DNA of 17,341 nucleotides from a bacterium (GTDB lineage Bacteria > AUK180): positions 1 through 17,341 of the forward strand of contig JAUXGM010000032.1 in the NCBI GenBank assembly GCA_030622125.1, read 5' to 3'. The notes below the pieces were generated by a model. It was not told the origin of the DNA and ran no database searches. It saw nothing but the letters and a program-made list of their open reading frames with translations. The position numbers were made by a program, and so were the translations under genes. Shown in pieces: positions 11,148-13,697 of the stretch (position 1 is the stretch's first letter; each line of letters begins with the position of its first letter).

Positions 11148-12083
11148 TTAAATAAACAATGAACTCACGGATTCGTTCCTATGAATTCTTAAAATTGCTT
11201 CACCTATCAATGGTGCAACATCAAATATTTTCACCTTATCACAAATTTCTTTTTGGGCAATAGAGTTTGTTATTGCCACTTCCTTGATCTTACTTTTTCC
11301 CAAACGATTTTGTGCATTTTTTGAAAATACCCCATGAACACCTACAACCCGTACCTCTTTTGCTCCATTTGCAATAAGTGCATTAGCAGCATTTATAACC
11401 GTTCCGCAGGTATCCAAAATATCGTCATAAAGCACAATGCTTTTACCTTTTACATTCCCAATAATATTTACTACCTCGGATTTATTCGGTACCTGTCTTC
11501 TTTTATCTATTATAACTATTCGTTTTCTCATTCTTTTTGCTACCGCCCGTGTTCTTGCAACACCACCTATATCGGGCGAGGCAAAAAGATCGAATCTTAT
11601 TTTTTTTAAATATTCTTCTATAAAGACCGGAACGGCATATAGATGATCAACCGGAATATTGAAAAAACCCTGTATCTGATCAATATGAAGATCCATGGTC
11701 AATACCCTACTTGCACCAGCCGAAGAAATTAGATCCGCAACCAATTTAGCGGTAATTGGAACTCTTGGTTTGTCTTTACGATCCTGTCTCGCATATCCGT
11801 AGTATGGTAAAACAGCGGTGATCCTACCTGCCGATGCTCGTTTTAAAGCGTCAATGCCGATTAAAAGTTCCATTAGATTGGTATTTACATCGGGAGATGT
11901 CGGTTGAATAACAAAGCAATCCCGTCCTCGTACATTTTTTTTAATTTGAACGAATATTTCACCGTCTGCAAAATAATTAACATCCATTGGGGACAACTCT
12001 ATTTTTAGATATGATGCGATACTCTTTGCCAACGGTATATTAGAGTTGCCGCTGAATATTCTCAATTCGTCATTTTTGCACAT
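11148..12083 (-). CDS. prs: Ribose-phosphate pyrophosphokinase (PRPP synthase)
   Basis: Prs (311 aa) makes PRPP from ribose 5-phosphate and ATP for nucleotide, His and Trp synthesis. Visible motifs are FADGEIFVQI, the ATP-loop region YYGYARQDRKDKPRVPITAKL, the His-containing MDLHIDQIQGFF, SPDIGGVARTRAVAKRM and the PRPP loop YDDILDTCGT. The Cys in the last motif occurs in other Prs proteins, including human PRPS1. I choose ATG 12081-12083, which has AAGGA about ten bases upstream. An in-frame TTG three codons earlier abuts that site. The start overlaps the end of the upstream GlmU-like gene by 14 bases. Confidence 0.97.
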   Translation of the reverse strand: MCKNDELRIFSGNSNIPLAKSIASYLKIELSPMDVNYFADGEIFVQIKKNVRGRDCFVIQPTSPDVNTNLMELLIGIDALKRASAGRITAVLPYYGYARQDRKDKPRVPITAKLVADLISSAGASRVLTMDLHIDQIQGFFNIPVDHLYAVPVFIEEYLKKIRFDLFASPDIGGVARTRAVAKRMRKRIVIIDKRRQVPNKSEVVNIIGNVKGKSIVLYDDILDTCGTVINAANALIANGAKEVRVVGVHGVFSKNAQNRLGKSKIKEVAITNSIAQKEICDKVKIFDVAPLIGEAILRIHRNESVSSLFI

Positions 12084-12792
12084 AATTTTCAATCCTTTTT
12101 AATTCTTCCGGAGTATTGACACCTAAAAGTTCCCAATAATTTTTAAAAAGGTATCCGACTACTTTCTTGCTCTTTTCATTTAAGATCTCCACCAAGGTTG
12201 TAAGATAGTATTCTCCCTGTGCATTATTATTAGAGATTGCATTAAGGTTTTCATTTAATATTTGACCTTTTGTCAAATAAACACCACCGTTTATCATATC
12301 AATATTCTTTTCTTTTTCAGTCGCATCTTTTTCTTCTACGATCTTTACAATTTCCTCGTTGTCCATTATAATTCTTCCATATCCCGTCGGATCATCTATC
12401 CGTATGATCCCTATCGTAAGGACACCCGAATTGAATAGATGAAATTCGTACATTCCCTTCAAACTATCCATTGTCAAAAGCGGAACATCTCCATTCAGAA
12501 TAAATATATCATCATCATCGTTGATATATAAAAGAGCACTTTTAACCGCATCAGCGGTACCAAGCTGTTTTTTCTGGACAACATAACTCAAATTATCATA
12601 TTCGCTATTCAGGATGGCTTTTACAAGTTCTCCCTTAAAGCCTAAAACAATAATTATTTCATCAAAATAGCTGCTCACAGAACTCAATAGAATCTTTATT
12701 AACGGTTTATTCCTAATAGAATATAAAACCTTTGGGAGCTTTCCTCCCATTCTTTTTCCTAAGCCTGCTGCTAAAACTATTGCTTTTTTCAT
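12070..12792 (-). CDS. UDP-GlcNAc pyrophosphorylase, GlmU N-terminal domain only
   Basis: This 240-aa protein matches the uridylyltransferase half of GlmU, which makes UDP-GlcNAc from UTP and GlcNAc-1-P. Motifs are LAAGLGKRMGGKLPKVL at 7-23, QLGTADA at 76-82, GDVPLL at 101-106, then GYGRI, EEKDA, NGGVY and GEYYLTT. The left-handed beta-helix acetyltransferase domain of bifunctional GlmU (normally about 450 aa) is absent, and prs begins at the end of this frame. Another enzyme would have to acetylate GlcN-1-P. The ATG at 12790-12792 lies only 10 bases past the encoded CCA of tRNA-Gln, has no Shine-Dalgarno, and overlaps the ispE TGA as ATGA. An upstream in-frame GTG at 12873 lies inside the tRNA and adds nonfamily residues. 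Confidence 0.9.
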   Translation of the reverse strand: MKKAIVLAAGLGKRMGGKLPKVLYSIRNKPLIKILLSSVSSYFDEIIIVLGFKGELVKAILNSEYDNLSYVVQKKQLGTADAVKSALLYINDDDDIFILNGDVPLLTMDSLKGMYEFHLFNSGVLTIGIIRIDDPTGYGRIIMDNEEIVKIVEEKDATEKEKNIDMINGGVYLTKGQILNENLNAISNNNAQGEYYLTTLVEILNEKSKKVVGYLFKNYWELLGVNTPEELKRIENYVQK

Positions 12793-13697
12793 ATACAAAT
12801 TTTGGCTGGGGTGGAAGGATTCGAACCTCCGAATAGCGGTACCAAAAACCGCTGCCTTGCCACTTGGCGACACCCCAGCAATTTGGTATCAATTATATTA
12901 AACGGTAATTGTATCTCGGACTTCGGTTTAAAAAATACCGCTGCTCCGCTACCGCTTAAAAGTGCAAACTCACTTTTCAATTTTATCATTTCATAGATTG
13001 CTTTTAGATCCTTATTCAGACAAAAAAAAGCCGGTTCAAGATCATTAAAAAGCAGATCATTTAATTCAGTAAATAAACATTTCTTTACCGAATGCAATAT
13101 TTTACTAATTTTTTTAGAATTTGTCAAATTTACTTTAGCCTGTTCATCAAATATTTCATATACTTCTTTCGTTGATGTATCCTTATTCGGAAAGAATATC
13201 TTTATTTTTTTCTCGCATTTTAGATCTATCGGAAAGATTATATTCTGAACTCCCATAATCCGAGCAGCATTCTGTGGGATTAAAAAGAATGTAACATCTT
13301 TTCCAATCTCATGGCCGAATCTTAACATGTTCATAAGATCTGCAAAGATATTGTACCTGTTCTGTAGAAAAATAATGAATGCCGCCGCATTACTCGATCC
13401 GCCACCCAAGCCGGCACCAACGGGAATCCGCTTTTCAATCTTTATATGGAAGTTCGGAAGTTTTTTGATGGTATTTATTCTTTTAAAAACCCGAAAAAGG
13501 ATATTTGAGGAATCAACCGGTACTTTATATTTACCTGCTGCTCTTATTTCAAAGGTCTCCGCCTCTTTAACGGTGATCGTATCATGAAGAACGATCTTAT
13601 GAAAAAGTGAATCTATTTCATGGAAATTCCCCGTTTTTTTAATAACAGATAGATAGAGATTTATTTTAGCGTAAGACCTTAATTTCCATTCATTCAT
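12789..13697 (-). CDS. ispE: 4-diphosphocytidyl-2-C-methyl-D-erythritol kinase, frame extending through tRNA-Gln
   Basis: IspE is the ATP-dependent kinase of the MEP isoprenoid pathway, a GHMP-family enzyme. Key features are Lys11 in YAKINLYLSV, the ATP loop GAGLGGGSSNAA at 94-105, GKDVTFF with Asp134, and SGSGAAVFF at 248-256. The open frame is 302 aa. Residues 1-273 lie before the tRNA. From residue 274 onward the frame is inside tRNA-Gln (LGCRQVARQ...), and the TGA comes only at 12789-12791, overlapping the next ATG. IspE proteins are commonly 260-300 aa, so 273 residues could suffice, but the usual helix and strand after SGSG appear short. The tail may be translated, or a cleaved or nonstop message may result. 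The ATGA overlap with murA supports the start. Confidence 0.9.
   Translation of the reverse strand: MNEWKLRSYAKINLYLSVIKKTGNFHEIDSLFHKIVLHDTITVKEAETFEIRAAGKYKVPVDSSNILFRVFKRINTIKKLPNFHIKIEKRIPVGAGLGGGSSNAAAFIIFLQNRYNIFADLMNMLRFGHEIGKDVTFFLIPQNAARIMGVQNIIFPIDLKCEKKIKIFFPNKDTSTKEVYEIFDEQAKVNLTNSKKISKILHSVKKCLFTELNDLLFNDLEPAFFCLNKDLKAIYEMIKLKSEFALLSGSGAAVFFKPKSEIQLPFNIIDTKLLGCRQVARQRFLVPLFGGSNPSTPAKICI
12803..12877 (-). tRNA. tRNA-Gln (anticodon TTG)
   Basis: The minus strand folds as a complete cloverleaf. The acceptor stem is TGGGGTG/CACCCCA with discriminator G and an encoded CCA (12803-12805). The D arm has GCC/GGC. The anticodon stem GCGGT/ACCGC encloses the loop TTTTGGT with anticodon TTG. 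A 5-base variable loop and a T arm GGAGG-TTCGAAT-CCTTC follow. The U1-A72 pair is a typical tRNA-Gln feature. The gene lies between the bodies of ispE and the GlmU-like gene. The ispE frame runs through it without a stop. Placement of tRNA-Gln near ispE and prs is, as I recall, also seen in some deltaproteobacteria. Confidence 0.97.
12892..12897 (-). promoter_or_regulatory. Possible -10 box of tRNA-Gln
   Basis: A perfect TATAAT lies on the minus strand 14 bases before the tRNA 5' end, so a start around 12885 would give a leader of about 8 bases. No good -35 sits 16 to 18 bases upstream, and the box lies inside the ispE coding end, which is AT-rich. It may drive the tRNA and the downstream genes, or be chance. 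Confidence 0.3.

Follow-up and report, generated by a model that had tools for sequence, protein, structure and literature searches.

A bacterial ispE reading frame overlapping a whole tRNA-Gln(UUG) gene on the same strand, conserved within a family

The ispE, tRNA-Gln and glmU-like genes

The window, i.e. the whole stretch of 17,341 nt analysed here (contig JAUXGM010000032.1), carries on its minus strand a gene series in which ispE is followed by tRNA-Gln(UUG) and a glmU-like gene (Table 1). The first-pass annotation had claimed that ispE has no stop ahead of the tRNA, runs through all of its bases and ends at a TGA overlapping the next ATG. The open reading frame and the ARAGORN tRNA call bear out all of this, and the first in-frame ispE stop is the TGA of the ATGA in which the glmU-like gene begins. 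Farther upstream, prfA/prmC and murA/ispE are overlapping pairs as well.

Table 1. Features of the ispE/tRNA-Gln/glmU-like region in window coordinates
Feature	Position	Strand	Basis and remarks
Gene order: prfA, prmC, murA, ispE, tRNA-Gln, glmU-like, prs, rplY, pth, sodium-translocating pyrophosphatase gene		-	Family matches
ispE reading frame	13697..12789	-	302 aa, stop TGA
ispE outside the tRNA (residues 1-273)	12879..13697	-	Whole predicted kinase core (AlphaFold)
ispE tail (29 codons, 274-302)	12792..12878	-	Overlaps tRNA and spacer; mostly low pLDDT
tRNA-Gln, anticodon TTG	12877..12803	-	75 nt, CCA encoded; ARAGORN; RF00005 58.7 bits
Spacer from tRNA CCA to ATG	12793..12802	-	10 nt; length equal in 5/5 family genomes
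ATGA overlap of ispE and glmU-like gene	12789..12792	-	ispE stop TGA 12791-12789; glmU-like start ATG 12792-12790
glmU-like uridylyltransferase gene	12070..12792	-	240 aa; no Shine-Dalgarno seen; TIGR01173 E 4.6e-66, model positions 2-238 of 452
ATGA overlap of murA and ispE	13694..13697	-	murA stop, ispE start; like junction without tRNA

The ispE product is assigned to IspE (CDP-ME kinase) by profile, GHMP kinase motifs and predicted fold. The IspE family models match it with E about 1e-39, TIGR00154 giving 136.2 bits, just under its cut-off of 138.7; a GHMP_kinases_N domain is found, and the best 18 PDB fold matches are all IspE. An AlphaFold model from 29 sequences has a mean pLDDT of 89.9 and places the final strand of the core at residues 268-273. 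The tRNA begins within codon 274, so codon 273, which closes the predicted core, is the last one ahead of it. With the fold matches, this suggests that a complete kinase is probably encoded upstream of the tRNA.

The tail is mostly below pLDDT 50 at residues 278-293 in the same model, which also places a confident strand at 300-301 that is absent from a 5-sequence model. Conservation of the tail was considered as a sign of protein function and rejected, because the tRNA dictates its sequence apart from a few differing codons. As for the glmU-like protein, its match leaves the GlmU model uncovered beyond position 238; the protein thus lacks the acetyltransferase half.

The tRNA-Gln(UUG) has the looks of a functional tRNA, with a cloverleaf fold, the anticodon TTG, an encoded CCA and conservation in relatives. 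Only one tRNA-Gln(TTG) was found in each of five family genomes, and the second tRNA-Gln, where found, has the anticodon CTG. By the genetic code, decoding of CAA requires that the tRNA-Gln(UUG) be released from the transcript by processing.

Conservation in the family and ispE stops in other lineages

The phylum is represented in the collection by seven genomes, five of the window's family and two of a sister family. The five come from four genera and separate assemblies, and hold four distinct tRNA sequences. In all five, ispE crosses the tRNA in the identical phase, stops 14 nt past it and forms the ATGA stop-start overlap with the glmU-like gene. Since the layout is so conserved, one RNA must act as both message and tRNA.

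The other four IspE proteins are 51, 43, 40 and 39% identical to that of the window, and the linker and spacer sequences have diverged among the family genomes though the spacer length is constant. Most likely, as these sequences indicate, the read-through event predates the family. A single-sequence IspE scan of the genome contigs gave no match, and an alignment-based one picked out the four relatives with no additional close family member.

How readily a frame passes through this tRNA depends on its phase. Among 52 distinct tRNA-Gln(TTG) genes, the phase of ispE entry is stop-free in 47 and stopped in 5, while the other two phases hold stops in 34 and 26, usually TAG at nt 8-10 and TAA in the D-loop. 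Thus, an ispE frame without its own stop will usually terminate within the tRNA if it enters in either of two phases, and will usually read on past it in the third. Judged by these genes, it is hardly surprising that a frame entering in this phase should cross. The element beyond chance is the conservation of phase, end point (+14 nt) and 10-nt spacer in all five genomes.

Shuffling was applied to the flanking segments. For the linkers, taken as the last 12 codons and being coding, the probability that all four distinct lineages lack an in-frame stop is 0.02. For the spacers, which are AT-rich, it is 0.10, and the absence of stops there is weak evidence. A special RNA structure between the tRNA flanks was also considered and rejected, as the flank pairing is no stronger than that of shuffled flanks in any of the five genomes.

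Related genomes were compared at the ispE 3′ end, where a stop before the tRNA in relatives would have spoken against the read-through. Such stops occur outside the family only and in none of its members. In the two sister-family genomes, ispE enters the tRNA in a different phase and stops at the D-loop TAA, 21 nt into it. In more distant lineages, the stop is the TAG at tRNA nt 8-10 or lies ahead of the tRNA.

The 27 distinct ispE/tRNA-Gln junctions in the loci compared comprise seven with a gap of more than 100 nt, nine with a gap of 0-42 nt, seven with a stop 10-21 nt inside the tRNA and four crossed completely, these last being the four distinct tRNA sequences of the window's family. This graded series of stops, before the tRNA, at nt 8-10, in the D-loop and after the tRNA, supports the earlier suggestion that an original ispE stop was lost. 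The best reading of the sequences is that an old ispE/tRNA junction lost its stop, and the frame here came into the single phase that tRNA-Gln rarely interrupts and finishes in an overlap of the type usual in translational coupling.

Two wider searches were made for further crossings. A tail-peptide search of 386 genomes gave matches in 142, and none of the 16 regions examined, chosen from the long open frames of those matches, has an ispE frame that runs across the tRNA. A full-length IspE profile matched 352 genomes, and among the matches listed, a stop-free run into the tRNA-encoded tail at the tRNA occurs only in the window's family. One other genome, G061, matches as far as profile position 294, but there the tRNA is located farther downstream.

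Several side observations concern the same or similar junctions. Three of the four family genera have C or A at a D-loop position where T is usual (GGTAA; window 12803-12877, L004-L007). This change removes the D-loop TAA that the sister family uses as its ispE stop. In several other genomes, a spoVG-like small gene lies between ispE and tRNA-Gln (L013, L018, L029). In another genome (G132), an entire tRNA-Gln is read through by a membrane-protein-like frame unrelated to ispE (L132 2104-2176); this frame is open for 169 codons before the tRNA and has its stop 7 nt beyond it.

In the window's own genome, 35 tRNA genes of 40 matches were inspected, and no other tRNA is crossed by an upstream open reading frame of at least 90 aa. 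A 176-aa membrane-protein frame there ends at the TAG of nt 8-10 of tRNA-Pro(CGG) (L110 1498-1573, minus strand, contig C4), and is a second protein gene of this genome with its stop inside a tRNA.

Possible fates of the transcript and alternative explanations

We favour, at a probability of about 0.5, that this conserved same-strand overlap of ispE with a whole single-copy tRNA gene gives an operon transcript with two alternative fates, namely to be translated through the tRNA or to be cut by RNase P. Ribosomes reaching the tRNA before RNase P would unfold and translate it, making IspE with a 29-residue tail. They would then stop on the glmU start codon and could restart there, which amounts to translational coupling.

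RNase P acting first would instead release tRNA-Gln(UUG) and split the message into a stopless ispE mRNA and a downstream mRNA whose leader is about 10 nt long. A non-stop ispE message is plausible because tmRNA was found in all five family genomes, and RNase P RNA in that of the window. RNase P cutting should leave the ispE mRNA in that state, and tmRNA would rescue it.

The coupling step stands at about even odds, with a neutral overlap as its serious rival. It is suggested by the murA/ispE pair, also joined by ATGA. No Shine-Dalgarno was seen at the glmU-like start in any of the five family genomes, and other starts in these operons have one. According to PMC12548453, coupling works best over short distances, and RNA can be unfolded by ribosomes translating the upstream gene.

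Two observations count against the coupling. In the sister family, where ispE stops in the D-loop, the glmU-like start follows just after the tRNA without a Shine-Dalgarno and without frame overlap; coupling is hence not needed there and is not the sole way to express the gene. Moreover, in each of the five family genomes a Lys codon follows the glmU start, so the A of ATGA is given anyway.

A further extension appears unlikely to us, though it follows the same lines. Any one operon transcript would become either message or tRNA, with the ribosome and RNase P competing for the tRNA, so that tRNA maturation makes the ispE mRNA a tmRNA substrate, uncouples glmU and sets isoprenoid and cell-wall precursor synthesis against the supply of the sole tRNA-Gln(UUG).

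The strongest alternative, somewhat less probable than the two-fate reading, is an overlap tolerated without function. Compaction would have brought the ispE end right up to the tRNA, and with its stop gone the frame would run on to the next one in phase, by coincidence that in the glmU ATGA; the added residues would be harmless and nothing regulated. It gains from the stops borrowed within tRNA-Gln in several other lineages and once more here at tRNA-Pro, from the openness of the used phase in most tRNA-Gln genes and from the mostly disordered prediction for the tail. However, the constancy of phase, end point and spacer length across four genera speaks against it, as does the lack of any other crossed tRNA among those inspected in the window's genome.

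Much less probable is that the arrangement serves mainly as a non-stop switch of the arfA kind, in which RNase P removes the stop and tmRNA tags IspE for degradation, so that the IspE level follows tRNA processing. Besides the tmRNA and RNase P RNA found here, arfA itself is a precedent, an RNase cut inside its frame regulating it via trans-translation (PMC3989581). However, no sign of a regulatory need is seen, and the partial ispE/tRNA overlaps elsewhere would have an equal consequence.

Similarly improbable is a tRNA promoter inside ispE, by which message and tRNA would come from different transcripts and not compete. The window has a TATAAT 15 nt before the tRNA, but by eye the other family genomes lack the motif at this position, so a shared internal promoter was rejected. 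Besides, any operon transcript that extends over the tRNA would be cut all the same.

A base or assembly error hiding a stop, which the first-pass annotation had raised, can practically be excluded, for although the window comes from a draft genome of 192 contigs, the same read-through is present in four relatives with separate public records (JAGGYO01, CALMGJ01, JAGLGN01 and JAGLWT01).

Relation to known arrangements and significance

Overlaps of coding sequences with tRNAs and ATGA junctions are known kinds of arrangement. The ispE/tRNA-Gln(UUG) neighbourhood of many bacteria has the same gene order, strand and short or absent gap as here. There, ispE stops before the tRNA or in its first 21 nt, whereas here the whole tRNA is crossed.

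The translationally coupled ATGA overlaps likewise have the upstream TGA in the next ATG, here too with no Shine-Dalgarno seen. In the present case, unlike those, the last 29 upstream codons overlap a tRNA and spacer, and the layout points to a possible coupling.

Message and tRNA also abut or overlap in the tRNA punctuation of mitochondria, where tRNA processing separates them. The mitochondrial overlaps are usually a few nucleotides and their stops can be completed by poly(A). The ispE message resembles these in adjoining and overlapping a tRNA, but the overlap here is a full tRNA and in a bacterium.

In arfA, as PMC3989581 reports, the non-stop mRNA is regulated by RNase III and tmRNA. The likeness is that an RNase acting inside the frame would leave a stopless mRNA. 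In the present case, however, RNase P is the expected enzyme and its cut would also yield a tRNA, while rescue and regulation are putative. In the open-access literature, titles and abstracts did not turn up any bacterial reading frame reported to run through an entire functional tRNA with conservation across genera.

In summary, the ispE/tRNA-Gln(UUG) overlap of this family would offer two natural tests, one of the ability of a bacterial ribosome to read its way through a functional tRNA, and the other of the outcome when tRNA maturation removes the stop codon of a gene. The graded stop positions among the lineages show how a protein gene comes to borrow, and then to skip, the stops inside a neighbouring tRNA.
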